From Lampropedia puyangensis (GTDB lineage: Bacteria; Pseudomonadota; Gammaproteobacteria; Burkholderiales; Burkholderiaceae_C): a stretch of 64,000 nt of DNA. Position numbers and translations under genes: made by a program. The stretch lies in NCBI RefSeq assembly GCF_004833285.1, contig NZ_STFG01000001.1, forward strand, positions 641,287 to 705,286, written 5' to 3'. Under the pieces are notes generated by a model. It was not told the DNA's origin. It saw nothing but the letters and a program-made list of their open reading frames with translations, and made no database searches. Positions 700-50,781 of the stretch are shown piece after piece; the first letter of the stretch is position 1; each line of letters opens with the position of its first letter.

Positions 700-1252
700 G
701 GGGAATTCAGCGTAAAGGGCGATGCGGCCTGAGAATCAAAAGTAATGGCTTGCGTGGTGCACATAACTCGCCACGTTGGGAGCGTGGGGACATGGCAACA
801 TCTTAAATTGAATCACTGGGGTGTGCGAGACGCGTCATCTGGTACAAACCAGCACGCTGGGGCGGCGTTCACGAGGTGTATGCCAAGAATGGCTAAATGC
901 AATATCGGCGCAGGTTTACAACGGTATCCTGACCGTAATGTAAGCGATGTTGCGCCACCCAAATGCGCTATTCTTTCGGGATAAAAATGATAATGAGAAT
1001 ATATTTCATTACATTTCATTGGCTCTGTAACCCCTTTTCCGAGCCGCAGATTTACTAGACTTCGCTCGCGTTCGAAATGCCTTCAAACAGCATCTGGATA
1101 CAAGCGAGCAGTGGCAGGATTGAGTTTTTCTGCAACTGGACGTGAAGGACTGAACGCAATCAGGTCACTACCACATACCAAGGACTGCCGAGTGCGTCCC
1201 ATCGCTTGTTGCGGTATGGGGGGTGTTGGCTTTATTCCATTCAGAGCAATCC
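700..1252. other. Intergenic region upstream of the siderophore receptor
   Basis: About 550 bases separate the divergent response regulator and TonB receptor. I see no convincing gene here: the short frames have neither domain signatures nor good ribosome sites. The recognisable element is a Fur-like box at 989-1007, about 245 bases upstream of the receptor start, implying a long leader or a second promoter nearer the gene. Confidence 0.6.
989..1007 (+). promoter_or_regulatory. Fur-like box upstream of TonB receptor
   Basis: The 19-base stretch GATAATGAGAATATATTTC matches the classical Fur consensus at 14 of 19 positions, counted by eye. It lies in an AT-rich patch upstream of a siderophore receptor, which is where iron repression is expected. 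The match is mostly in the left half. Confidence 0.65.
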
Positions 1253-3553
1253 ATGTCATCGAATCCATCTTCTTTCGCGCGCCGGGCTTTGCCGCCTTCG
1301 GTGGTTCCTACGGTATTGGCATTGAGCATCCAAGCACTCATGGCCTCAGGCGCTTATGCCCAGTCTGCAACCAACTCAGACACTCCGGCGCTGGCCGAAG
1401 TGCAAGTGAGCAGCACGGCCGAGGTGACCAATGCCAGTGAAGTGACCAAATCCTATGAGAACCCAGCCGTATCGGCATCGACGGGGCTGACATTGACGCG
1501 CCGCGAGACACCGCAGTCTGTGAGCACGGTCACGCGTCAGCAAATGGACGATGAAAACGTTGAAACCCTTGACGATGCGTTGTTACATGCCACAGGGATT
1601 ACGGCCACCCAGCTCGACATTGGTGCGCGTGTTGATTACCGTGCACGCGGCTACAAGATCACCAACTTCAAGGTCGATGGCGGTCGCATTGATGGTGACA
1701 CTGGCTTTGCTGGTCAGGGTATGTCGATCAACATGGATTTGTATGACCGTGTGGAAATTTTGCGTGGTGCCAATGGGTTGATGGGCAATACCGGAGATCC
1801 TTCTGGTGCCGTCGAAATGGTGCGTAAAGAACCACGTAAAACCCGCTCAACCACCTTGTCTGCGACGGTGGGCAGCTGGAACAAGCGCCAATTGATGGCT
1901 GATGTCAATCAACCCTTGACCAGTGATGGCCGGGTGCGTAGCCGCTTTGTGGTTTCGGGGGAGGATTCAGATGGTTTTCGCGATCGTGAAGAAAACAAAG
2001 CGGTTGGTGCGTTGGCCAGCTTTGCCATTGATGCCACGCCTGATACCAAAATTGGTTTTGGCGCGCAGTATGAGCGCCGCCGTTTGAATGGGGCAACATG
2101 GGGCACAAACGTACCGATCTGGTTTGCAGATGGCACGCCAACCAGCTTTAGCCGCAGCTTGAATTCAGCGGCGGATTGGAGTTTTAGCGAGCGCGAAAGC
2201 CGTGGTATTTTTGCTAATGTGGAGCACCGTTTCGAGAACAACTGGACTACACGCTTTCAGGCTTCTAGCGCTAAGGGCGAGAGCAAAACACACATTGGCG
2301 CATCCAAAGCCAATAGCGGCGGTAACCGTGGTTACTGGAACCAAGATGGCACAGGCGGCGCCATGAATACGATGTTCCAAGAAGGCGAGAACACTACGAA
2401 AAATGTGCAATGGAGTCTTAATGGCCCTTACGAGCTGTGGGGGCAGCGCCATGAATTCATGGTCGGCTTTAATGGTACAGACAGCAAGAGCACAACGTTT
2501 GGCCTGAAATGCACTACGGCAGAAGGCGTGGCATTGGGCGCTTGCATGAACCGCATCACTGACCAATTTGCGATTCCAGATTGGCGTGACTTTGTGGCCA
2601 ATGGCGATACGTTTGGCGAGATCACGGCTGCGCGCACAGGGATCAACACCACAAGTCGTCAAAAAACTTATGGGGGCTATATTGCCAATCGGTTCCGCAT
2701 TACTGAGCCATGGTCTGTGATTGCAGGCGCCCGAGTGAGCTGGCAGCGTAACTATTCCAATGGCAATCTGGCGTCCGAGTTCAGCAAAGAAATCACGCCT
2801 TACATTGGGACCGTGTACGACCTCAATGACAACTACTCTGTTTACGCTAGCTACACCGATATTTTTGAGGCGCAAAACCGCCGCAAAATCAACGGCGACT
2901 ACATCGACCCGAAAACAGGCAGCGCTTACGAGGCAGGGATCAAAGGCGAATGGCTCGATGGCTTGTTTGATGGCTCTTTAGCGGTGTTCTATACCAAACA
3001 GCAGAAGCTGGCCACTAAGGATCTGGACCCGCAAGGCAACGACCAATATGTGTACGGCAACGAAGCTGAAGGTGTTGCCTATATCAATGGTGCATCCGGC
3101 GTGCGAACAAAAGGTTTTGAGGTGGACTTTTCTGGCCGCATCACACCCAATTGGAATATGTATGGGGGCTACACCTATCTGAAGGTCAATAACCCCAATT
3201 CGCCTAATACGGACGATGATCCACGCCACTTGCTGCGTTTGAACACCAGCTACCGCTTGCCTGGTGCACTCAACCGTTTGACTGTCGGTGGTGGATTGAC
3301 ATCACAGAGCTCAATGCGCCAAAGTGCCACTGGTACCAGCCACCCTACGCAGGGTAGTAATGTGAATATTGACCTGAAAGGGTACACCCTGTTCCATGCG
3401 ATGGCGCGTTACGACTTCAGCAAGCAGCTGGTTGGTACGTTGAACATCAGCAATTTGTTTGATAAAACCTACTATCGCCAATACGGCTTCTACGCTGGAG
3501 CTATCTACGGTGAGCCGCGTGCTGTGAAATTGAATCTGCGCTACCAGTTCTAA
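1253..3553 (+). CDS. TonB-dependent siderophore receptor (FhuE/FpvA type)
   Basis: Outer-membrane receptor for a ferric siderophore, powered by TonB-ExbBD. The product (766 aa from the ATG at 1253) has a signal peptide ending near SGAYAQS, a plug domain with RRETPQSVSTVTRQQM and the RGANGLMGNTGDPSGAVE segment typical of the FhuE/FpvA group, and a long beta-barrel ending in aromatic Phe (LNLRYQF). No N-terminal secretin-like signalling domain is seen, so it is probably not a FecA-type transducer. The frame could also start at GTG 1223, but the signal peptide fits 1253. A Fur-like box lies upstream and a hairpin terminator follows. The exact siderophore cannot be read from sequence; hydroxamate and mixed types are typical ligands. 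Confidence 0.92.
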   Translation: MSSNPSSFARRALPPSVVPTVLALSIQALMASGAYAQSATNSDTPALAEVQVSSTAEVTNASEVTKSYENPAVSASTGLTLTRRETPQSVSTVTRQQMDDENVETLDDALLHATGITATQLDIGARVDYRARGYKITNFKVDGGRIDGDTGFAGQGMSINMDLYDRVEILRGANGLMGNTGDPSGAVEMVRKEPRKTRSTTLSATVGSWNKRQLMADVNQPLTSDGRVRSRFVVSGEDSDGFRDREENKAVGALASFAIDATPDTKIGFGAQYERRRLNGATWGTNVPIWFADGTPTSFSRSLNSAADWSFSERESRGIFANVEHRFENNWTTRFQASSAKGESKTHIGASKANSGGNRGYWNQDGTGGAMNTMFQEGENTTKNVQWSLNGPYELWGQRHEFMVGFNGTDSKSTTFGLKCTTAEGVALGACMNRITDQFAIPDWRDFVANGDTFGEITAARTGINTTSRQKTYGGYIANRFRITEPWSVIAGARVSWQRNYSNGNLASEFSKEITPYIGTVYDLNDNYSVYASYTDIFEAQNRRKINGDYIDPKTGSAYEAGIKGEWLDGLFDGSLAVFYTKQQKLATKDLDPQGNDQYVYGNEAEGVAYINGASGVRTKGFEVDFSGRITPNWNMYGGYTYLKVNNPNSPNTDDDPRHLLRLNTSYRLPGALNRLTVGGGLTSQSSMRQSATGTSHPTQGSNVNIDLKGYTLFHAMARYDFSKQLVGTLNISNLFDKTYYRQYGFYAGAIYGEPRAVKLNLRYQF

Positions 3554-3629: not shown

Positions 3630-4000
3630 ATGCCTAGAAAGCAAAGACAGGATGAAATAATTTTGTTGCCGCGCAGGTGACAGCCGGATCACGAATGCAT
3701 CATAAAAGAGACAAATTAAAAAATGATATCAAAAACCATTCTCATTTAATTTATATTTCGACTCCGTAAATTTTCGTCAATTTGACGTGTTACGCAGAAC
3801 TATTGATGGGTATGGCGGCGAAGCCAAAACGCTTCCGACTGGTGTCGGTGTTCAAGGCATCGGTCAGGCTGGTTGGAGCTGTACATGAGCAGCACACATA
3901 CCCAGTGCAATAGGCTTTTAGCTAGCCAAACATGGAAGATGCCAAAGGCACTTGCCACGACAAAGCCAGCCGATATCGTCCTTTTAAAAGGTTTGATTCC
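3630..4000. other. Intergenic leader of the fiu-like gene
   Basis: About 370 bases between the first receptor terminator and the second receptor start. The AT-rich part at 3715-3765 carries a weak Fur-like match. No other gene is supported. Confidence 0.5.
3731..3749 (-). promoter_or_regulatory. Possible Fur-like box upstream of fiu
   Basis: Read on the minus strand this stretch contains AATGAGAAT inside an AT-rich region and matches the Fur consensus at about 11 of 19 positions. The downstream gene is a catecholate receptor, so iron control is expected, but the match alone is weak. Confidence 0.4.
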
Positions 4001-6280
4001 ATGGCTTATATCCGTAGTCAAAAACACCGAGTTACTCGGCAAGTGGCTTCTTCTTCTGTGGTGGCTGCAATAGGCTTGGCCGCTTGCAGCTCTGTATTGG
4101 CACAACAAGTTGCGCCTGATGCGCGCAATGCTCGCACACTTGCTGAAGTGGAAGTGTCAGGTGATGCGCAGACCTACAAAACCGAGCAGGCTGCCAGCCC
4201 CAAAATGACAGCGAATTTGGTTGATACGCCGCAAACTGTTACGGTGATTAACCGTGAAGTGATTGAAGAGCAAAACGCCAGCACGTTGCAAGAGGCACTG
4301 CGCAATACACCGGGGGTGACTCTGTTGTTGGGTGAAGGCGGCAACTCCAACACCAAAGACAACATTTTTATGCGCGGTTTTGATACCAGCAGCAGTATTT
4401 TTGTTGATGGGGTGCGCGATTTGGGCAGCCAGAGCCGCGATACCTTCAATGTCGAGCAAATCGATGTGATCAAAGGGGCCTCCGGTTCTGAATATGGCCG
4501 TGGCGCCCCATCGGGCACCATCAATATGGCCACCAAAGTTCCTTTTACGGGCAACGCCAATGAAGCGCGCGTTTCCATGGGAACTGACGACCATAAACGC
4601 ATTACGGCGGACATCAATCGCAGTTTGTCAGATACGTCTGCCGTGCGTTTGAATGCCATGGCGCAAAACAGCGGGACCCCAGGGCGCGATTTTGTGCGCA
4701 ACAAGGGTTTTGGTTTTGCGCCATCGGTAGGATTTGGTTTAGGCACGCCGACACGCGTGTTTGCTGATTTATCGTATGTGAAAAAAAACAATCGCCCAGA
4801 CGGTGGCGTGCCCACATTGGGTTTGCCCGGTTTTTACAATGCGGCGCTGGCCAATGCAGGTGTTGATTTGAGTGGTTTGGCCGCTGTTGACAGCTCCAAT
4901 TACTACGGCAGCTTGAGTGACTACAGCAAGACCGAAAGCACCCAGGCCACATTGCGTGTGGAGCATGACTTCAGTGCCGATGCCACGCTGCGCAATACCA
5001 CCCGCATCGGGCAGAATGAGTTTGATCAACTGCTCACGGGCACCAGTGCTGTTGTTAGCGATGGCTCTGGCGCCAATGCCGTGGCCAGACTGGATCCTGC
5101 GACATGGACGGCGTCTCGCTCACGTCAGTTGCGTTGGCAAAAAAATTCGATAGCCACCAACCAAACCAATTTGAGTGCTCGCTTTGCGCTGGCTGGCATG
5201 CAGCACACGCTCAATACGGGGGTGGAGCTGATCTATGAGAAGCAGACCACTAAAGGTCTTACGGGCGCGGGTACCGTGGCACAAGCCAACTTGTACAACC
5301 CGAATGTGAATGACCCGATCGCAGGGCAAGACATCCAACGGACTGGCCAGCGCAGCAACGGTAACACCAAAACGCTGGCGTTGTATGCGTTTGATACGGT
5401 GGAGCTGCACCCTCAGTGGCAAGCCACAGGAGGGGTGCGGGTTGAGCGTTACCGCACGCAGAATGACTCGGTGACAGCACCTGATGCGGCTGGCGTTCAA
5501 ACCTTCAGCAACCTCAAAGCCAGTGATACCTTGGTGAGCGGCAAGTTGGGATTGGTGTTCAAGCCTACAGCCAATGGTTCTATCTACGGTGGAATCTCCA
5601 CTTCTCAGCAGCCTCCTGGCGGCAGCAACTTCACGTTGAGTGCAACCGAAAGCAGCATCAATAACCCCAATATGGATCCGTCTAAATCGACCAACGTGGA
5701 GTTGGGCACGAAATGGAACCTGTGGGATAACCGCTTGATGGTGACAGGTGCTGTGTTCCGTACAACGGTTAAAAACGACCTGACCCGCACGGTCGAAGGT
5801 GACATTCAGCAGTACGGTAAAAAGCAAGTCTCTGGCGTTGAATTGGGTGTTGTTGGGCAACTGACACCGGCCTGGAATGTAACGGCAGGCTTGGCACGCA
5901 TGAACACCAAGGTCAAGGATGGCTCTTCCACCCAAACAGGGGCGCAGTTGAACTGGTCACCCAAACTGAGCTTCACCAGCTGGACTTCCTATCGTTTGGG
6001 TAATGGACTGACCGTTGGTGGTGGCGCGCGGTATATGGATTCGGTGACACGTTCGGTCAGCAACAGTGCTGATCCAGCTATGTCCAATATGCTCAATACG
6101 CCGTCGTATTGGGTGTATGACGCGTACTTGGCTTATGAGATCAACCGCAATGTGTCCCTGCAGTTGAACGTATTCAACCTGGCTGATAAAAAGTACATCG
6201 CCAATTTGAATAACAACGGTGGCCGCTATACACCAGGTGCGGCGCGTTCTGCACAGGTGACTGCCAATATCAAGTTCTAA
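4001..6280 (+). CDS. fiu: Fiu-type catecholate siderophore TonB receptor
   Basis: Outer-membrane receptor for monomeric or linear ferric catecholates. The start chosen is ATG 4001 (759 aa), preceded by AAGG nine bases upstream; an in-frame ATG at 3932 would add 23 residues ahead of the signal peptide. The signal peptide ends near SSVLAQQ. Plug segments MRGFDTSSSIFVDGVRDLGS and SRDTFNVEQIDVIKG, the barrel stretch NRPDGGVPTLGLPGFY, and SQQPPGGSNFTLS closely follow E. coli Fiu; the C-terminus ends in Phe. The next gene is piuC, reproducing the fiu-ybiX neighbourhood of enterobacteria. Iron repression through Fur is expected, with a weak box upstream. I am confident of the subfamily; the natural ligand is inferred. 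Confidence 0.93.
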   Translation: MAYIRSQKHRVTRQVASSSVVAAIGLAACSSVLAQQVAPDARNARTLAEVEVSGDAQTYKTEQAASPKMTANLVDTPQTVTVINREVIEEQNASTLQEALRNTPGVTLLLGEGGNSNTKDNIFMRGFDTSSSIFVDGVRDLGSQSRDTFNVEQIDVIKGASGSEYGRGAPSGTINMATKVPFTGNANEARVSMGTDDHKRITADINRSLSDTSAVRLNAMAQNSGTPGRDFVRNKGFGFAPSVGFGLGTPTRVFADLSYVKKNNRPDGGVPTLGLPGFYNAALANAGVDLSGLAAVDSSNYYGSLSDYSKTESTQATLRVEHDFSADATLRNTTRIGQNEFDQLLTGTSAVVSDGSGANAVARLDPATWTASRSRQLRWQKNSIATNQTNLSARFALAGMQHTLNTGVELIYEKQTTKGLTGAGTVAQANLYNPNVNDPIAGQDIQRTGQRSNGNTKTLALYAFDTVELHPQWQATGGVRVERYRTQNDSVTAPDAAGVQTFSNLKASDTLVSGKLGLVFKPTANGSIYGGISTSQQPPGGSNFTLSATESSINNPNMDPSKSTNVELGTKWNLWDNRLMVTGAVFRTTVKNDLTRTVEGDIQQYGKKQVSGVELGVVGQLTPAWNVTAGLARMNTKVKDGSSTQTGAQLNWSPKLSFTSWTSYRLGNGLTVGGGARYMDSVTRSVSNSADPAMSNMLNTPSYWVYDAYLAYEINRNVSLQLNVFNLADKKYIANLNNNGGRYTPGAARSAQVTANIKF

Positions 6281-6351
6281 ATCAAGCCGGGCTGCCGTTG
6301 GCCATTTGCTGCTTGCTGTAGGAAAATGGCCAACACGAGTTCCGGCTTGAT
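6281..6351 (+). other. Long two-tier stem-loop between fiu and piuC
   Basis: Outer arms ATCAAGCCGG (6281-6290) and CCGGCTTGAT (6342-6351) and inner arms GTTGGCCATTT (6297-6307) and AAATGGCCAAC (6324-6334) nest into one extended hairpin starting right after the fiu stop codon. No T-run follows, so it does not look like a plain terminator. An mRNA-stability or differential-expression element is an inference. Confidence 0.75.
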
Positions 6352-6421
6352 ACTTGTTGGGGGGCGTGCGCACGCCTGCCCCATGCCAACTGATTCACCA
6401 GTAGATGAAAGAGCGCACACC

Positions 6422-7099
6422 ATGATGCTGCATATTCCCGGAGTGCTGACGCCAGATGAGGTGTTGGCGATACAGCAACGACTTCAACAAGCGGACTGGG
6501 GTGATGGGCTGGCCACTGTGGGGGCGTTGGGCGCTACGGTGAAGCACAATCGGCAGTTACCGCAACAAGCCCCTGTTGCGCAGGAACTGGCCCAATACGT
6601 CAGTCAGGCGGTACGCAAACACCCATTGTTTGTTTCGAATGCCTTGCCGCTGCATGTCTTGCCGCCGCTCTTTAACCGCTACGAAGGAGGCGAGAACTAT
6701 GGTCTGCATGTAGATGGCGCGATTCGCCAGTTGCCAAACGGACAGAGTATGCGCACCGATGTTTCCTGTACGCTGTTCTTGTGCGAACCAGATACTTACG
6801 AAGGGGGCGAGCTGGTGGTCGTGGACACGTATGGCACGCACGAAGTGAAGTTGCCAGCAGGCGATATGGTGGTGTATCCCTCAACCAGCTTGCACCAAGT
6901 GTTGCCTGTTACGCAGGGCGTGCGTTTGGCCTCGTTTTTTTGGGTGCAAAGTTTGGTGCAGGACGATCAGCGCCGAGCGATGCTGTTTGAGCTGGATCAA
7001 ACCATTCAACGTTTGCTGGCGCAGTTGGGCAGTACGACCGAAACCGTGGCGTTGACCAGCCACTACCACAACCTGATTCGCCAATGGGCGCAAACCTGA
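6422..7099 (+). CDS. piuC: PKHD-type Fe(II)/2-oxoglutarate hydroxylase PiuC/YbiX
   Basis: Predicted non-haem iron, 2-oxoglutarate-dependent dioxygenase of the PiuC/YbiX family, commonly found beside Fiu/PiuA receptors; its substrate is not established. Starting at ATG 6422 gives 225 aa, the usual family length, with AAAGAG just upstream; the longer frame from 6326 would begin inside the upstream hairpin. The metal ligands are visible as HVDG (His-x-Asp) in [14 protein letters not shown] and a distal His in [11 protein letters not shown], followed by the 2-oxoglutarate-binding Arg in [12 protein letters not shown]. It is probably co-transcribed with fiu, 141 bases downstream. Confidence 0.93.
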
Positions 7100-41760: not shown

Positions 41761-42715
41761 TAAATACCGAGCTTTAAAGGCATTTTTGTTGGTGGCGCAA
41801 ACACGTTCCTTTACGTATGCCGCTAACGATCTGGGGGTGACACAGCCCTCCTTGACAGCGTTGATTCATGATCTAGAGGAAACTGTTGGCATGCGTTTGT
41901 TTGAGCGCTCGACGCGACATGTGGAACTTACTGAGGCTGGTGGCGAGTTTCTTTCGCGCATCATGCGACCATTGGGCGATATTGAAGATGCCTATGCCAG
42001 TGCTGTGACTCACGCAAAAGGGGAAATCGGTTCGATCTCTATCGGCAGCCTACCTTCTGCCGCCATGGGCATGTTGCCAATTGCAATGGCTCAGCTCAGG
42101 CGCTCACACCCTGCATTGCGTACAAAAATCATTGAAATGCACAATGACCAGCTGCTGGAAATGATTCGAAGCAATCAAATTGAATGTGCGATCGGAGCTA
42201 TGACCGAATCCACTCAGGATTTGGATTTTGAGCCTTTGATAGGAGATGCTTTTTATTTGATCGTATATCCCAGTCACGCCTTTGAGAGTCGTCAGCGCCT
42301 GTATTGGCGCAATATTCAAAAGAAAGAGTTGATTGTTTTGGCACAAGGATCGAATGCACGGGCGCAGATCGAGCGTGAGTTGCCGGATCTTGATGGTGAG
42401 GAAAAGAATGAGCCACAGTACGATGTCACACACATCGTCACTGCGCTAAACCTAGTGCGTCAACAAGTGGGGGTAACTGTTGTACCTGGACTCTCTATGC
42501 TGGGCTTGCACTTGAATGGGTTGCACATCAAACGATTGCAAGACGCCAATGCGCAACGACGTATTGGCATCATTAAGCGTAAAGGCAAATTTCTTAGCCC
42601 AGCCACCACCATGTTACTCAATACTTTGCGCAGCATTGCTCCTTCGGTTGAGAAGAAGTTAGAGTCGCTTAATGTAAGGACGGATGTAGACAGAGCAAAG
42701 CGGAGTTTCAGCTAG
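41747..42715 (+). CDS. LysR-family regulator divergent from catabolic operon
   Basis: LysR-type transcription factor of 322 aa. The N-terminal helix-turn-helix reads YRALKAFLLVAQTRSFTYAA and VTQPSLTALIHDLEETVGM, then the effector-binding domain (ISIGSLPSAAMGMLPIAMA). It faces the aldehyde dehydrogenase operon and is probably its activator, responding to a pathway intermediate. The ATG lies in a tight inverted repeat and lacks a good ribosome site, so the message may be leaderless. Its 3' end overlaps the convergent NRPS gene by eight bases. Confidence 0.92.
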   Translation: MAINIKYRALKAFLLVAQTRSFTYAANDLGVTQPSLTALIHDLEETVGMRLFERSTRHVELTEAGGEFLSRIMRPLGDIEDAYASAVTHAKGEIGSISIGSLPSAAMGMLPIAMAQLRRSHPALRTKIIEMHNDQLLEMIRSNQIECAIGAMTESTQDLDFEPLIGDAFYLIVYPSHAFESRQRLYWRNIQKKELIVLAQGSNARAQIERELPDLDGEEKNEPQYDVTHIVTALNLVRQQVGVTVVPGLSMLGLHLNGLHIKRLQDANAQRRIGIIKRKGKFLSPATTMLLNTLRSIAPSVEKKLESLNVRTDVDRAKRSFS

Positions 42716-45700
42716 AAAACAGTTCTGGCGCAATAGCGCGTGTTGCAGCCAGTCCTGTCATTTCTGAATGTAGGAATGGGACTTCCAAAGTACGCAATTG
42801 GCTGGCGTAGGTATTCCACAAACTGGCTTGGAGTTGCGGTTTATTGGCGTGGTCTTTGCCTGCGCGGATGTGGGTGAGAACGCCGTTGTAGTAGCGGTGC
42901 TGGTGTTCTCGGATAAGGCGGTTGGTGTCGGTCACCACGCGGATCACGCCTGCCAAGGCTTCATCGGGCAATTGTCCTAATGCGGTGTCGCCCTGTTTCA
43001 GAAAGGCAATCACTTTGTCTTGGGTGTCCAGTTCTGGGTGGCCTTCAGGGTCATAGCCTGCAATCGCCAGCAGTGCGCGCAGGGCTTGCAAAGGGGATGG
43101 CTCAGGTTCGGCGCGCCAGACATCTGCAGGATAGGCATCGAGCATGGCAACCAAGCCCAGCGTTTTGCCCATGTTTTGCAAATGCACGGCAGTGGCCTGC
43201 GCAATGATGCCCCCGACGGACCAACCCAACAGATGGATAGGGCCATCGGGTTGGATTTGCAGCAGACGTTGGGCGTACTGCGCTGCCAGTGCATCAATGC
43301 TTTCAGGCAATGGTGTTTGTGGGTTCAGCGCTGGAGACTGCAGACCATACACCGCGCGTGGCACGCTGTGTTCGGACATGAAGTCAACATCTTTGGGGTG
43401 CGAGATAGCGCGGGCCAAGTGGCGATAGCCCCAGCTGATCCCACCTGCGGGGTGAATCACAAACAAGGGTGCATGGTCACTCAATATTGCCGAGCCATCT
43501 GCCATAGCGGCTGCGCTGGCCAATTGAATGACTGGGGCCAAGCCACTGTCGAAGCTGACTTTTTCGTCATCGATCAATGCAGCCAAGCCGCTGATGCTGG
43601 GTTGAGCGAACAAGGCGCCTAAGCCAGGGTTGCGCTGCCACTGTTCCTGTACCAATAGCAGCAGTTGCACAGCGCCAAGAGAGTCGCCTCCCAGGCTGAA
43701 GAAATCGCTGTCGGCATCTATTTTCTCTAATGGGACTTCCAATAATTGTGCAAATAGTGCGGCCAGCTTTTGTTCTGTGGCTGTTTGCACGGCTCGGCCG
43801 TTGCTGCTGCCAAAATCAGGTGCGGGCAGGGCTTTGCGGTCGAGTTTGCCGTTGCTGGTTACGGGCCAATCGTGCATTTGCACGATGGCAGCAGGCACCA
43901 TGTAATCGGGTACTTGGCTGGCAATGAAGCGTTTGAGTTGCGCGTGATCGAGTACTTCAGAGGCTTGCACATAGGCTACGAGTTTTTTGTCACCCACGCG
44001 ATCTTCGCGGACGATGACATTGCCGCGGCAGATCATGCCGCTGGCTTGCATGGCCGCGTCAATTTCACCCAGTTCGATGCGCAAACCCCGCAGTTTGACT
44101 TGGTGGTCACTGCGACCGATGTACTCCAAGGCGCCATCGGTACGCCAGCGAGCCAAGTCCCCAGTTTTGTACATGCGTTCACCAGAATGGAAGGGGTCTG
44201 GCACAAAGCTGGCACGGGTCAGGTCATCACGGCCTAGATATCCGCGTGCCAATTGCACTCCGGCCAGATACAAGTCACCGGCCACACCTGCTGGCACGGG
44301 GTGCAACTGGGCATCGAGAACGTACAGGCGCGTATTCCAGACGGGAAAGCCGATAGGAATAGGGCGTGAATGATCACTCGCACTGGCAGGCCAATAGCTG
44401 ACATCGACGGCGGCTTCAGTGGGGCCATAGAGGTTATGCAACTGAGCCGTCAAGGTGGCATGGGTGCGGTCGCGCAGATCGGCCGGCAACTCTTCTCCAC
44501 TGGTGAAGATGCGCTGCATATGGATGCCACGGGCACTGGGTTCGCTCAGGAAAGCAGCCAGCATCGAAGGGACGAAATGGCACGTACTAATGCGCTGTTG
44601 GCGGATGATGCGGGCCAACCAGGCAGGGTCGCGATGGGCTTCAGGAGGGGCCACTACAAGCGTGCCACCACATAAAAAAGGTAAAAAGAACTCCCATACA
44701 GAAACATCGAACGTGGCGGGTGTTTTCTGCAAAATCCGATCATCCGCACCAAATTTGTAGTGTTGGCGCATCCATTCCAGTCGATTGACGATGGCTTGGT
44801 GTTCGACCATGACTCCTTTGGGCTCTCCCGTCGAGCCGGACGTATAAATGACGTAGGCCAAATCGTGCGGTGAAGGCGCCTCCAGTGCACTCATGTCTCC
44901 TTCTGCTTGCTCGGGCCATTGCGATGTAGTCAGCAATGGCAACTCTTGCGGCAGCAGGTGGGCATCAGCCGGTTGTACTAAAGCGCACAGAGGTTTGGCC
45001 AACCGGACCACGCGCGCCAACCGTTCGGCGGGATGGTGCAAATCAAGCGGCAGGTAAGCGCCACCGGCGCGTTGTACTGCAAGTAATGCAATGACCAGTT
45101 CTAAAGAGCGTGGCAGTGCGACAGCCACTAGCGTGTCTTTGCCGACGCCTTGGCGTTGCAGGGCTTGAGCCAATGCGCGCGTGCGCTGTTCCACTTGCGC
45201 GTATGTCAGTGTGGTTCCTTCAAATTCCAGCGCAGGCGAATCCGGGGTGTGGCGCATTTGCGCTTCTATCAGGGCGACTAGGGTGGTACTGGGTACAGGG
45301 TGCTTTGTCGCATTGACATCAAAGACATAGCGCTGCGCCTCTTCAGGGCTGGCCAGGGTTATGTTGGCCAGCGTGGTGGCCTGCAATGCTTGGCTGATGA
45401 AGTGGGGGAGGCGCTGCAAATGGGCTTGTACGCTGTACAGGTCGTACAGGTTGGGGTTGGCTTCGATTTCCAGTTCGAGCGCATTGTGGCCGTCGCCTCT
45501 GAAGCCAATGGTGATGTCGTCAATCGGGCCTGTACCCAAAATCTCCAGTTGGGCATGTAAGCCGGTTAAGTGAATGGGCTGGTAAAACGGTTGCACATTG
45601 ATCAGCGCACCGTACAGGCGACGATTGCCACCCAGCAAGCCCAGATCGCGGCGCAACTGTTCGCTGCGGTAACGCCCATGGCGGCGTGCACGAACCTGTT

Positions 45701-46706
45701 CTCGTGCCATGGTCTCCAAGAAGTCTGAAAGGCTTTGTTGGCTGTTGGCAGCGACGCGAAGTGGCAGCACGTTCATGACCATGGCAGGTACGCGGGCGCT
45801 GGCGCTGCCCAGACGCCCCATAAAGGGAATGCCGACTACGGTCTCTTCTGCAGCAGCCATGCGTTGGCAGTACAGCGCAGTAATGGCCGTGAGTACATCG
45901 GGCCATGGGATACCTGCCTTGTTTGCAAAGTCCAGCAGGGTCTTGCGCCAATGGGCACTCAATGGCGTGCGCAGGTGGTGGCAGGTATGCGCAGCCTGTG
46001 CTTTGGCACTTTGGTTGCCCGCCATGCCTGCCACTTCTGGGATGGGGTGTAGCTGCGCTTGCCAATAGGCAGCGTCTTTGCTGCGTTTGTCCGCATTCCG
46101 GTAGGTATCCGCTTCCGCCATGACAGCCCCAAGCAAGCCGAGTGGTTTGGCGAGCGCCTGTTGGTGTGCTTGTTCGCCTTGTAAGGCTGCGTTGTAGAGT
46201 TCAACCACACGGCTTTCCCACAAGGCCATGCCGTAGCCATCGTTGAGCAGGTGGTGCGCGCGTTGGTACCAAACAGCATCGGTATCGGTTAACAGGAACA
46301 GGCACTGCTTGGCCAGTTTGTCTTGAGCAGGAAGAAGAGGCTGCACCATGTCAGCATGCATGGCTTGCCGGGCAGCGGTTGCATTGCTGTTGAGGTCCCC
46401 GTTGGCGCGCCAGTCCACCAGTTCTAGCCAGGGCGTATGGCTGGGGTCAAGATATTGCTCTGGTGTTTGGCTGGTTTCACGAAAGCGCAGGCGCAGTGAC
46501 TGCGCTTCTTGCGTGGCTTGGTTCACCGCTTGCGTAAAGGCCTCCAGTGCGATTGCGCCATGCAGCCATAGTGCATGGCCTGTATTGAGGCTCGGATTAT
46601 CTGGTGCCAGTTGCTGGGCATACCAAAGGCCCGATTGGGCTTCGCTCAAAGGCCAGACAGCTTGAGTGTTGAGAAAAAGGCTGTCTGGTGCATTCATGAG
46701 AAACAT
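42708..46706 (-). CDS. entF: EntF-like nonribosomal peptide synthetase, C-A-T-TE, serine code
   Basis: Single-module NRPS of 1,332 aa. Condensation domain (about 15-440) has HHLLNDG; adenylation domain (about 475-960) has YTSGSTGEPKGVMVEH and NGKLDRKALP; carrier domain near 1005 has the phosphopantetheine Ser in FFSLGGDSLGAVQ; thioesterase domain (about 1085-1320) has GWSVGG. Reading the ten specificity positions against EntF gives DVWHFSLVDK, the serine code. With the upstream aryl carrier protein this should acylate Ser with an aryl acid and release an oligomer, as in enterobactin. No MbtH-like gene is seen. ATG 46706 or 46697 could start it. Confidence 0.9.
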   Translation of the reverse strand: MFLMNAPDSLFLNTQAVWPLSEAQSGLWYAQQLAPDNPSLNTGHALWLHGAIALEAFTQAVNQATQEAQSLRLRFRETSQTPEQYLDPSHTPWLELVDWRANGDLNSNATAARQAMHADMVQPLLPAQDKLAKQCLFLLTDTDAVWYQRAHHLLNDGYGMALWESRVVELYNAALQGEQAHQQALAKPLGLLGAVMAEADTYRNADKRSKDAAYWQAQLHPIPEVAGMAGNQSAKAQAAHTCHHLRTPLSAHWRKTLLDFANKAGIPWPDVLTAITALYCQRMAAAEETVVGIPFMGRLGSASARVPAMVMNVLPLRVAANSQQSLSDFLETMAREQVRARRHGRYRSEQLRRDLGLLGGNRRLYGALINVQPFYQPIHLTGLHAQLEILGTGPIDDITIGFRGDGHNALELEIEANPNLYDLYSVQAHLQRLPHFISQALQATTLANITLASPEEAQRYVFDVNATKHPVPSTTLVALIEAQMRHTPDSPALEFEGTTLTYAQVEQRTRALAQALQRQGVGKDTLVAVALPRSLELVIALLAVQRAGGAYLPLDLHHPAERLARVVRLAKPLCALVQPADAHLLPQELPLLTTSQWPEQAEGDMSALEAPSPHDLAYVIYTSGSTGEPKGVMVEHQAIVNRLEWMRQHYKFGADDRILQKTPATFDVSVWEFFLPFLCGGTLVVAPPEAHRDPAWLARIIRQQRISTCHFVPSMLAAFLSEPSARGIHMQRIFTSGEELPADLRDRTHATLTAQLHNLYGPTEAAVDVSYWPASASDHSRPIPIGFPVWNTRLYVLDAQLHPVPAGVAGDLYLAGVQLARGYLGRDDLTRASFVPDPFHSGERMYKTGDLARWRTDGALEYIGRSDHQVKLRGLRIELGEIDAAMQASGMICRGNVIVREDRVGDKKLVAYVQASEVLDHAQLKRFIASQVPDYMVPAAIVQMHDWPVTSNGKLDRKALPAPDFGSSNGRAVQTATEQKLAALFAQLLEVPLEKIDADSDFFSLGGDSLGAVQLLLLVQEQWQRNPGLGALFAQPSISGLAALIDDEKVSFDSGLAPVIQLASAAAMADGSAILSDHAPLFVIHPAGGISWGYRHLARAISHPKDVDFMSEHSVPRAVYGLQSPALNPQTPLPESIDALAAQYAQRLLQIQPDGPIHLLGWSVGGIIAQATAVHLQNMGKTLGLVAMLDAYPADVWRAEPEPSPLQALRALLAIAGYDPEGHPELDTQDKVIAFLKQGDTALGQLPDEALAGVIRVVTDTNRLIREHQHRYYNGVLTHIRAGKDHANKPQLQASLWNTYASQLRTLEVPFLHSEMTGLAATRAIAPELFSS

Positions 46707-46782
46707 TACGCAAATGAAAACGGTTAAAAATGGGCAGCTGGGCGTGGAGTAATTGGCCGCACGTTACCTAGGGAGATGCCAA

Positions 46783-47034
46783 TTAAGGGGTGATCTGTTC
46801 CAAACGCTTTTGCACCACACTCCACCAGCCTTGCAAGGTGGTGTGTTCTGCAATCTCAGAGAAATCCAAACCAATGCCGGTTTCATTCCAACTTACCAAC
46901 AGATTCAGTACGCGCATGGAATCCAGCCCGAGATCCATCAGGTTGTCATCGAGTTGAATGTCTTCTGGTTGTTCATGCACCATGCGTGCGATGTCTGCGC
47001 GCATGCGTTCAAGGGTGAGTGTGTTCTGGCTCAT
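46783..47034 (-). CDS. Stand-alone aryl carrier protein (EntB C-terminal-like)
   Basis: An 83-aa phosphopantetheine carrier protein. The attachment Ser is in NLMDLGLDSMRVLNLLVSW, and the second half (IGLDFSEIAEHTTLQGWWSVV) matches the aryl carrier domain of EntB/VibB, including the Trp-Trp pair. EntB normally fuses this to isochorismatase; here it stands alone. It would carry an activated aryl acid such as 2,3-dihydroxybenzoate to the NRPS encoded 76 bases downstream. Start ATG 47034 is chosen from the domain; a longer frame begins at 47091. A Fur-like box lies about 160 bases upstream. Confidence 0.82.
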   Translation of the reverse strand: MSQNTLTLERMRADIARMVHEQPEDIQLDDNLMDLGLDSMRVLNLLVSWNETGIGLDFSEIAEHTTLQGWWSVVQKRLEQITP

Positions 47035-47141
47035 GGTGGTGAATGCTTGTAAAAGGCTGGTGGCGCAGGCGTAGATGCCATGAATGGGCAATGGCGCTTA
47101 GGTGGTAATGCAATGCGCCACACTGAAGTCAAATGTGAAAA

Positions 47142-47168
47142 GGAGTCAGCACTTAGATTGCTGACCCC
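47142..47168 (-). terminator. Terminator-like hairpin in leader of the siderophore genes
   Basis: On the minus strand GGGGTCAGCA (47168-47159) and TGCTGACTCC (47151-47142) form a ten-base stem (one G-U) with a seven-base loop and are followed by TTTT. It lies after the CDP-alcohol gene but also between the Fur-like box and the carrier protein start, so it may terminate the first gene or attenuate the second. Confidence 0.7.
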
Positions 47169-47194
47169 ATTAAGCGGCTATTTTGCCATAGCCT

Positions 47195-47213
47195 GAAAAT
47201 AGAAATCATTATC
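47195..47213 (+). promoter_or_regulatory. Fur-like box upstream of aryl carrier / NRPS genes
   Basis: GAAAATAGAAATCATTATC matches the 19-base Fur consensus at 15 positions, including the entire right half. On the minus strand it overlaps TTGATA, a plausible -35 element for the siderophore genes. This supports iron-repressed siderophore synthesis. Confidence 0.75.
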
Positions 47214-47262: not shown

Positions 47263-47937
47263 TCACTGCTGCTTCAATGCTGTCGCGATACCGTTTAAAC
47301 GCGTCAGGCAGGTGATGAGAGAGCCGGTTGTGATCACGGCGCAAGCCGTCAGCAGGGCGTATTGGGTATGGTTCAGTGGCGCTTCAAGTAAAGCAATAGC
47401 ACAGGCGGCAGTCATCAGTGCCATGCGGTGTTGTTTTGCCATTGGGCCGCGAAAGCTTTGTGCCAAGCCCAAGGATCCACCCAACACACGTACATAAGCC
47501 GTCAGGGCGGCAGCTAAGGCACCCAGCCAACCCAGCCAATCATGGCCCACCGCGTAACCGAGTGCCACAATCAAAATGCTGTCGGCAATGCGATCTGGCA
47601 CTTCGTTATAAAGCGCACCTGTTGGGGTTTTTTTGCCTCCTTCAATAGCCACCATGCCATCAATGACGTTGCATAGCAGGCGCAATTGAATGCCCAGAAT
47701 GCAGCCAAGCATGTTCCCGCCAGCAGGCAGCCACAATAAACTTGCTGCGCCTAATGCGGCAAATGCCACGCTGGCCACGGAGATGGCATTGGGTGTGATG
47801 CCTGTTTGAGCCAGCTGTTTGCTCAAGCGCTGAATCCAGGGATTTGAACGGGCTTGAATAGGGCGTCGGGCCATTTCCTGTGATTCTGCCGCGGCGTTGC
47901 TGGCCTGCGGATTGGGGGCAGAGGGTGGATTTGTCAT
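47263..47937 (-). CDS. CDP-alcohol phosphatidyltransferase family protein, atypical motif
   Basis: Integral membrane protein of 224 aa related to phosphatidylglycerophosphate and phosphatidylserine synthases. The signature region reads NVIDGMVAIEGG, GALYNEVPDRIAD: the first and third metal-binding Asp of the usual motif are Asn and the Arg of the AR pair is Ile, while the DG and the last Asp remain. Several hydrophobic helices follow. I recall this NxxDG version as a recurring subgroup, which would make it a real variant rather than a dead enzyme. Not obviously tied to the siderophore genes, though upstream of them on the same strand. Contrast the canonical PgsA at 60217-60786. Confidence 0.8.
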   Translation of the reverse strand: MTNPPSAPNPQASNAAAESQEMARRPIQARSNPWIQRLSKQLAQTGITPNAISVASVAFAALGAASLLWLPAGGNMLGCILGIQLRLLCNVIDGMVAIEGGKKTPTGALYNEVPDRIADSILIVALGYAVGHDWLGWLGALAAALTAYVRVLGGSLGLAQSFRGPMAKQHRMALMTAACAIALLEAPLNHTQYALLTACAVITTGSLITCLTRLNGIATALKQQ

Positions 47938-48066: not shown

Positions 48067-48543
48067 ATGAAACTGAAAATCATTGTCGGAACGGCTAGCG
48101 ACAACGCGCTTTACGCCGCCCAAGCCATTCAAACCGCGTTGGCTGGTGAATTGAACGCCATTGACGTTGTTTTGGCGAATGCCCATACGACAGGAGAGAT
48201 TCTGGAGGTCGGCGCTGATGAGGTGGTATTGGTGTGTACCTCCACACACGGTAACGGCGATGTGCCAGAAAACTTGCTGCCTTTGTATGCAGACCTTGAT
48301 GCGCATCCACGCTATCTTGGGGCGTTGCGTTATGGCGTAATTGCTTTGGGAGACAGCTTTTACGGCGAGACCTTTGCCGCAGGCGGCAAACTTTTTGATG
48401 CCCGCCTACAGGATTTAGGCGCACAGCGCATGGGTGACCTGTTCACTATTGATGCCAGCGAAATGCCCGATGCCGAGCCCGAGGCTGTGCAGTGGGCGCA
48501 GGTATGGGTTGCGCAATGGCTTAAACCGGGGGGTGATCGCTGA
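48067..48543 (+). CDS. Flavodoxin-like protein (MioC type)
   Basis: FMN-binding flavodoxin-fold protein of 158 aa, starting at ATG 48067 (the open frame runs 19 codons further up). The phosphate-binding loop IIVGTASDNALYAAQAI, the VCTSTHGNGDVPENL loop and VIALGDSFYGETFAAGGKLF match the MioC/CysJ-type flavodoxin group. It probably shuttles electrons; MioC supports biotin synthase in E. coli, but no partner gene is adjacent. Divergent from the CDP-alcohol gene, convergent with the Nudix gene. Confidence 0.88.
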   Translation: MKLKIIVGTASDNALYAAQAIQTALAGELNAIDVVLANAHTTGEILEVGADEVVLVCTSTHGNGDVPENLLPLYADLDAHPRYLGALRYGVIALGDSFYGETFAAGGKLFDARLQDLGAQRMGDLFTIDASEMPDAEPEAVQWAQVWVAQWLKPGGDR

Positions 48544-49274: not shown

Positions 49275-50781
49275 CTAAGCAGCCGTGGCTTGTCTGACCG
49301 CATGCTCCCATTCCTCCATCAATGCGCTGGCACGTGCACGGCTCATTGTGGGGAAAAACTGCCGCTCTGCTTGCCAAAGGGCTGCGAGCTCGTCTGTATC
49401 TGCGTATACATGTGCCTGCAACCCAGCCAACCATGCCGCGCCTAATGCGGTAGTTTCAATCATGCGGGGACGCAGCACTGGAATGCCGAGCAGATCGGCC
49501 TGGAATTGCATCAATAGATCATTCACGCAAGCACCGCCATCTACCCGCAATTGCGTGACGGGGGGCGGCGCCAGCTTGCTGGGCATCCAGGCCCATAGCT
49601 TGCAGTAGAGCCGTGCTTTGGTAGGCGATACTTTCGAGTGCAGCCCTCGCAATGTGGGCAATGCTTGTGCCTCTGGTTATGCCCGTGATCGTGCCGCGTG
49701 CCTGCGGCTGCCAATAGGGCGCACCAAGCCCTGTGAAGGCGGGCACGACGACGACGCCACCGCTATCGGGTACTGATTCGGCCAAATGCTGTACTGCCCC
49801 GCTGTTGCTGATCGCGTTCAGGCCATCACGCAGCCATTGCACCACCGCACCTCCAACAAAGACGCTACCTTCTAGTGCGTACTGCGCGCGCGCATTGGGT
49901 TGCGCAGAGCTGGTGGTGATCAGACCATGGTGTGACAGATGGCATTGCGCTTCGGTATGCATCAACATGAAGCAACCCGTGCCGTATGTGTTCTTGGTCA
50001 TGCCGCTGCTAAAACAGGCTTGCCCAAAGAGAGCTGCCTGTTGGTCGCCAGCCACCCCACCAATGGGCAGCGCAGCCCCTAACCATTGGACATCGACGTG
50101 ACCGAAGTCGGCCGATGAAGGCAGCACTTGCGGCAGCACCGATTCAGGAATGTTCAAAAGTTTGAGTAAATCAGCGTCCCAGACATTGCGCCGGATATCA
50201 AACAGCATGGTGCGCGCAGCGTTGCTGACATCGGTGACATGTTTGGCCCCTGCGGTCAGGTTCCAGATCAACCAACTGTCGACCGTGCCAAAGGCCAATT
50301 CGCCAGCTTCAGCTTGCGCGCGAGCGCCAGGAACGTGGTCAAGCAACCATTGCAGTTTGGTTGCAGAGAAATAAGCATCGATGCGCAGGCCTGTTTTTTC
50401 CTGAATGCGCGCTTCATGCCCGGCTGCACGCAACACGGCACATGCAGGTTCGGCGCGACGATCTTGCCAAACAATGGCGTGGTGCAACGGTTGACCAGTT
50501 TTTCGGCTCCACAGTACGGTGGTTTCGCGTTGGTTTGTGATACCTACGGCTTTGATTTGCGCTGCGTGCACACCAGATTGTTTGATGACCTGTTGTGCCG
50601 TGGCCAACTGTGTTTGCCAAATGGTGCGGGCATCGTGTTCGACCCAGCCTGGGCTGGGATAAATCTGCGGCAACTCTTGCTGCGCCATGGCATGGATGCG
50701 ACCTTGGCGGTCAAACAATATGCTGCGCGAGCTCGAAGTGCCTTGATCCAGTGCGAGTAAATAGCTAGCAGACGTGTGCAT
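49275..50781 (-). pseudogene. glpK: Glycerol kinase glpK split by a one-base frameshift
   Basis: Glycerol kinase of the FGGY family, which phosphorylates glycerol to glycerol 3-phosphate. The first 405 or so codons (from ATG 50781) read normally: [37 protein letters not shown] and [15 protein letters not shown]. In a run of six identical bases (G at 49560-49565 on the plus strand) the frame breaks; the old frame stops at 49519, while the expected C-terminus ([20 protein letters not shown] to the stop at 49275) continues in another frame. Removing one base restores the whole enzyme of about 500 aa. So this is either a fresh pseudogene or a sequencing error. It follows creA by 42 bases. Confidence 0.88.

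Follow-up and report, generated by a model that had tools for sequence, protein, structure and literature searches.

A catecholate siderophore pathway predicted to be dispersed over four loci in Lampropedia puyangensis

The window analyzed here is a 64,000-nucleotide stretch of contig NZ_STFG01000001.1 of Lampropedia puyangensis, whose minus strand carries a stand-alone aryl carrier protein (ArCP) followed, after a gap of 76 bp, by an EntF-like nonribosomal peptide synthetase (NRPS). The ArCP (46783..47034, minus strand) is an EntB'-type protein of 83 aa that starts with the ATG at 47034 and contains the attachment motif DLGLDSMRVL. It matched PF00550 with 39.5 bits in a Pfam search of the 102-aa open reading frame (ORF). 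Its best solved relative was 2fq1 (listed as Isochorismatase), which we take to be E. coli EntB; the match fell within the C-terminal ArCP part of that protein (E 2.4e-8). ArCP orthologues adjoin the NRPS in all nine other genomes of the genus and are 79–89% identical.

The NRPS (42708..46706, minus strand, 1332 aa) has the domain order C-A-T-TE and a serine code. On the same strand, it comprises a condensation domain (residues 15–458, 45333..46664) with the motif HHLLNDG, an adenylation domain (residues ~481–960, 43827..45266; Pfam match 481–824), a peptidyl carrier protein (PCP/T) domain (residues 979–1045, 43572..43772), and a thioesterase domain (residues ~1080–1329, 42720..43469; Pfam match 1080–1270) with the motif GWSVGG. 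The Condensation, AMP-binding, PP-binding, and Thioesterase matches were all above the Pfam cut-offs, and HHxxxDG, LGGDSL, and GWSVGG were all intact in the alignment. The specificity code in the alignment reads D,V,W,H,F,S,L,V,D,K, identical at every position to that of Escherichia albertii EntF. The first-pass annotation, made from the sequence of the window, had described a stand-alone ArCP of the EntB C-terminal type and a C-A-T-TE synthetase with the EntF serine code, and both descriptions held.

The same annotation had placed a 15/19 Fur-like box upstream of the pair. This site was recovered at 47195-47213 (minus strand), some 160 bp before the start of the ArCP gene; its aligned counterpart in the closest relative scores 13/19. 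Two Fur-like sites of at least 15/19 were found in the window and none in 20 Markov-1 simulations of 64 kb; among 3000 random 280-bp stretches from the window and the genus loci, the frequency of 15/19 was 0.0003. The second 15/19 match, at 48069-48087, lies across the beginning of a flavodoxin/MioC-like ORF (48067-48543).

The pair had been annotated as lacking the genes for 2,3-dihydroxybenzoate (DHB), which was correct for the window and incorrect for the genome. No match to EntB, EntC, or EntE was found within the window except for the adenylation domain of the NRPS itself, and with the EntA query no match there reached 70 bits. Family searches of the source genome (G000; 3.97 Mb in 76 contigs, 99.57% complete) located EntC, EntB with EntA, and EntE with a major facilitator superfamily (MFS) gene at three other loci. 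EntC (TIGR00543 isochorismate synthase, 266 bits, cut-off 224.75) lies on the contig of the window (C1) at ~298 kb, ~385 kb from the NRPS, and adjoins a TctC receptor gene (PF03401). EntB, on contig C67, is a 221-aa ORF with PF00857 as its sole domain and no ArCP, and it matched 2fq1 across the isochorismatase part (E 3.2e-67); isochorismatase and ArCP are, hence, separate genes on different contigs and not fused. EntA overlaps EntB and matched TIGR04316 (EntA/DhbA) with 333.8 bits (cut-off 300). EntE, on contig C18, lies downstream of the MFS gene, and its best solved match was the DHB-AMP ligase 1md9. A second isochorismatase-family gene (C23, stretch L039, 5040-5717) was rejected as EntB, matching YcaC instead (60.9 bits), and a chorismate-binding match on C13 was rejected as EntC, being TrpE-like (TIGR00564, 517.7 bits, at cut-off). 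A further match to the chorismate-binding family lies on C10.

Each module was read as having unrelated genes on both sides: metG and ppk at EntB–EntA, thrS-infC and ribF at MFS–EntE, and hmgA and ATP-synthase genes at EntC. The same arrangement of four modules recurs in the closest relative (G014), which is a separate assembly; there too, hmgA lies close to EntC and ppk adjoins EntA. Faulty assembly is, therefore, an unlikely cause of the dispersal. From its gene content, the pathway looks complete and spread over four loci. We consider it about 85% probable that 42708-47034 encodes the part of a catecholate siderophore pathway that adds serine, with the other predicted enzymes encoded at the three other loci.

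In the pathway that we infer, EntC would convert chorismate into isochorismate at its own locus beside the TctC receptor gene, and the single-domain EntB and the overlapping EntA would convert isochorismate into DHB. EntE, encoded with the putative MFS exporter, would activate DHB and load the free-standing ArCP. The EntF-like condensation domain would couple DHB to the serine carried by the T domain of the same enzyme, and DHB-serine or short oligomers, the most likely product, would be released by the thioesterase. The iron complex would be taken back up by a Fiu-type catecholate receptor encoded in the same window, and AcpS would arm both carriers with no MbtH partner needed. An aryl-capped serine compound had been proposed in the first-pass annotation along with a genome-wide search for entA, entC, and entE; all three were present, and with genes for DHB synthesis and loading in the genome and a serine code matching EntF, that proposal gains support.

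The receptor is a TonB-dependent, Fiu-type catecholate siderophore receptor (3932..6280, plus strand), which would be the uptake gate. It matched NF007349 with 816.8 bits (cut-off 686) and the Fiu structure 6bpm (E 6.8e-168). A Fur-like site of 13/19 lies upstream of it (3725..3743, plus strand), and a YbiX/PiuC-type Fe(II) dioxygenase gene lies downstream (6326..7099, plus strand; NF003975, 335.7 bits, cut-off 180; PF18331).

Several results weigh against this pathway. The NRPS scored 848.7 bits against the NCBIfam EntF equivalog NF007605, for which the cut-off is 2400. EntE fell slightly below the cut-off of TIGR02275 (701.4 bits, cut-off 723.55), as did that of Ottowia (722.6 bits). EntC was only 35% identical to the EntC of the Lampropedia hyalina cluster. 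Searching PF01648 in G000 retrieved no phosphopantetheinyl transferase (PPTase) of the Sfp/EntD type, so AcpS alone would have to serve. The Fur-like sites of the MFS–EntE and EntB–EntA modules of G000 are singly weak (12/19, p 0.06 each), and the EntC module has no good site there (11/19 before TctC, p 0.24; 9/19 before EntC).

The PF01648 search covered six genomes of the split type (G000, L. hyalina, a Comamonadaceae metagenome-assembled genome (MAG), Ottowia, Pseudorhodoferax, and Stenotrophomonas maltophilia), with E. albertii as the control. One PPTase was matched in each of the six and three in the control. The single PPTase was AcpS in G000, L. hyalina, and Pseudorhodoferax (family scan) and in the Comamonadaceae MAG (sequence reading), and was HetI/Sfp-like in Ottowia and S. 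maltophilia. MbtH was over the cut-off in one of the seven genomes, namely the control; the four matches in G000 were all below it (best 17.1 bits, cut-off 27). Of the MbtH and PPTase partners that had been suggested for a search, G000 thus has AcpS, with no MbtH over the cut-off. The resulting predictions are that the carriers of the NRPS are armed by a PPTase of the AcpS type and that such EntF-like enzymes function independently of MbtH.

Taking the best Fur-like site in the 280 bp upstream of each module, the scores in G000 and G014 were 15 and 13 for ArCP–NRPS, 12 and 14 for MFS–EntE, 12 and 14 for EntB–EntA, and 11 and 10 for TctC–EntC. Sites thus lie upstream of three of the four modules in both genomes, and those three align or overlap (6-bp offset) between the two. 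Across all modules of the genus, the best scores ranged from 8 to 15, several of them at background, so that the evidence is uneven. From these motifs, control of the modules by Fur may be proposed.

Alternatively, the synthetase could act like E. coli EntF, trimerizing DHB-serine and releasing enterobactin, a cyclic trilactone. Its domain order and serine code are those of EntF, and its thioesterase retains the GxSxG serine. The nearest studied system with a split ArCP and a single-domain EntB, however, reportedly makes DHB-serine, probably along with related molecules, instead of enterobactin (PMC12210187), and the shortfall against the EntF equivalog also speaks against the trilactone. The Fiu type of the receptor in the window counts against it too, although Fiu is reported to bind ferric enterobactin as well (PMC11005823). 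On balance, we regard enterobactin as an unlikely product.

Another aryl acid, such as salicylate, would be a very improbable cap. EntE scored under its equivalog cut-off and has salicylate ligases among its solved relatives. Yet HNFPMSSPG, with the serine characteristic of DHB ligases, is kept in EntE of all eight aligned genus sequences, EntC does not score as a salicylate synthase (TIGR03494, 86.3 bits, cut-off 325.15), and both EntB and EntA are in the genome.

In the NRPS contig search (best 80 of at least 593 confirmed stretches), the closest among the matches listed were those of L. hyalina (73% identity), the Comamonadaceae MAG (69%), Ottowia (63%), and Pseudorhodoferax (62%), followed by Stenotrophomonas and others at 57% or less. 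Stenotrophomonas, Salinicola, and others have a contiguous MFS-C-E-B-ArCP-F-A cluster. Among 60 relatives (E ≤1e-150), all 10 genomes of the genus carry the NRPS, as do 1 of 26 from the rest of the family and 3 of 24 from the rest of the order.

The genus is that of L. hyalina, and G000 and G009–G017 were compared. G000 and G014 have four loci (ArCP-F; MFS-E; B-A; TctC-C). In G009, B-A-C-ArCP-F are together and MFS-E is ~120 kb away, while G010 has ArCP-F and B-A-C-E. G011 has C-ArCP-F, MFS-B-A-C, and E, its two EntC genes of the cluster lineage lying in different modules (L212, L214). G012 and G017 have ArCP-F, E, and TctC-C-B-A, the EntE of G012 being a fragment at a contig end. G013 and G015 (both 99% complete) have ArCP-F and MFS-E, and G016 (77% complete) has ArCP-F only, plus a TrpE-like match. 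In G013 and G015, no EntB match was found at E 1e-20, and the EntC query found only a TrpE-like protein (EntA was not among the queries); the weak EntC-query matches in G013, G015, and G016 (33%, 33%, and 29%) were rejected as EntC, being TrpE-like at 509–515 bits. Both EntB and EntC were found in seven of the ten genomes, and each of these seven has the genes spread over more than one locus. In seven genomes (G000, G009, G010, G013, G014, G015, and G016), ArCP-F adjoins a flavodoxin gene, a Nudix gene, or both, which marks this as its commonest site; in the stretches retrieved from G011, G012, and G017, neither gene was seen.

Midpoint-rooted trees were constructed for EntB, EntC, and EntE. 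All eight EntE rows of the genus fell into one clade (100/99), and both EntE and EntB of G000 sit in genus clades with the Comamonadaceae cluster genes adjacent. For EntB, G000, G009, G010, G011, and G014 formed one clade (98/98), next to which Pseudorhodoferax was placed (97/95), and G012 and G017 fell into a different group (99/96). For EntC, G000, G014, G012, G017, and Ottowia formed one clade of the TctC-linked type (100/99), and the genes of G009, G010, and G011 (two copies) grouped with Pseudorhodoferax (99/96). Given these placements, G000 and G014 are mixed, having EntC from one lineage and EntB with EntA from the other. The TctC gene adjoins EntC in G000, G014, G012, and G017 and, convergently oriented, in Ottowia (L035 9690-11958; L206; L139; L219; L138). 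The named relatives of the TctC-linked EntC lineage among the matches listed (best 120 of 3961) include Ottowia, Oryzisolibacter, Pulveribacter, Comamonas, Bordetella, and Pusillimonas. Within the genus, the DHB genes have changed place, have been replaced in part by those of a second lineage, or were not detected.

The ratio of nonsynonymous to synonymous substitution rates (dN/dS) of the NRPS was 0.10 between G000 and G014 (dS 1.65, near saturation) and 0.15–0.19 among G013, G015, and G016. It was 0.11 for EntE between G013 and G015, and 0 for the ArCP (dS 0.11–0.35) in the lineage without detected EntB and EntC. By these values, EntE, ArCP, and NRPS are still selected in that lineage, where the two 99%-complete genomes have the three genes under purifying selection and EntB and EntC undetected. 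That the pathway has decayed, with these genes as its remnants, or that the genes have unrelated roles, might be argued from their dispersal, the EntC of another lineage, and the two relatives without detectable EntB and EntC, but is most unlikely given the low dN/dS of the NRPS, its presence in every genome of the genus, the absence of stop codons within the compared EntE, ArCP, and NRPS stretches, and the Fur-like sites that align or overlap between species.

In G017 (L220, L221), EntE is close to those of G013 and G015 (dS ~0.2), and the EntE fragment of G012 (L141) is 99–100% identical to EntE of G017, G013, and G015. The NRPS genes of G017 and G012 differ by a dS of 0.09, and both are farther from that of G013 (dS ~0.5). 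Close EntE with a more distant NRPS suggests that EntE may have been exchanged between species.

Other genes of the window were also read. A second TonB-dependent receptor (1223-3553), with a Fur-like site of 14/19 upstream (989-1007), most resembles FauA, the alcaligin receptor (516 bits, cut-off 900), and is likely a receptor for a hydroxamate xenosiderophore. A divergent CDP-alcohol phosphatidyltransferase-like gene (47263-47937; NF040950, 76.6 bits, cut-off 180; no Pfam match at 1e-3) lies between the flavodoxin and ArCP genes in G000 and G014 and in none of the eight other genus loci read; G009 carries entC-A-B at this position. A glycerol-kinase-like ORF (49519-50781) covers only 3–143 of 198 FGGY_C positions, and its end may be cut or shifted.

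Siderophore pathways are usually sought as one cluster, and the window alone would read as incomplete. The genus forms a natural series that begins with a near-complete cluster, passes through the four-locus arrangement, and ends with species in which DHB synthesis was not detected, the last being the surprising part; the step from shared precursors to inter-bacterial dependence therefore becomes directly testable. We tentatively propose, at somewhat less than even odds, that EntE-ArCP-EntF is a fixed core and that the supply of the starter acid is a plug-in, which was moved, replaced by a second EntC-EntB-EntA lineage, mixed as in G000, or lost. G013 and G015 would then be DHB scavengers that finish the siderophore only with the DHB of neighbours. 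No account of this pathway in Lampropedia was found in the literature searched, a limited collection, and as far as that literature goes, it is new that the pathway is dispersed, that its supply genes are mixed, and that some relatives have no detected supply.

Siderophore synthesis from several loci as such has a precedent in rhodochelin of Rhodococcus jostii, reportedly produced from three independent gene clusters; that system shares the multi-locus synthesis and differs in its siderophore and actinomycete host. Compared with the enterobactin system of Escherichia, the predicted chemistry of each step, the serine code, and the Fiu-type receptor are the same, whereas isochorismatase and ArCP are fused in EntB there, MbtH (YbdZ) and EntD are present, and the E. 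albertii NRPS is 37% identical. Griseobactin of Streptomyces is a different product. Its system (DhbB/DhbG) likewise has isochorismatase and ArCP as separate proteins (PMC12210187). The same separation is described for S. maltophilia (PMC12210187), and the split ArCP is, therefore, not new. In that species, siderophore activity was reported to be lost in the entC mutant and reduced in the entB mutant, entA and entF were also required, and the product was DHB-serine and related molecules (PMC12210187). G000 shares with S. maltophilia entCEBB'FA a single-domain EntB, a separate ArCP (EntB'), EntE, EntA, an EntF-like C-A-T-TE synthetase with an identical serine code (one strain aligned), and no MbtH over the cut-off (one strain searched), the identities to Stenotrophomonas being 55–57% for the NRPS, 67–72% for EntE, and 55–65% for the ArCP. 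The two differ in that S. maltophilia has one contiguous cluster with an MFS gene and HetI/Sfp-like as the sole PPTase found, whereas G000 has four separate loci, an EntC of the other, TctC-linked lineage (100/99), and AcpS.

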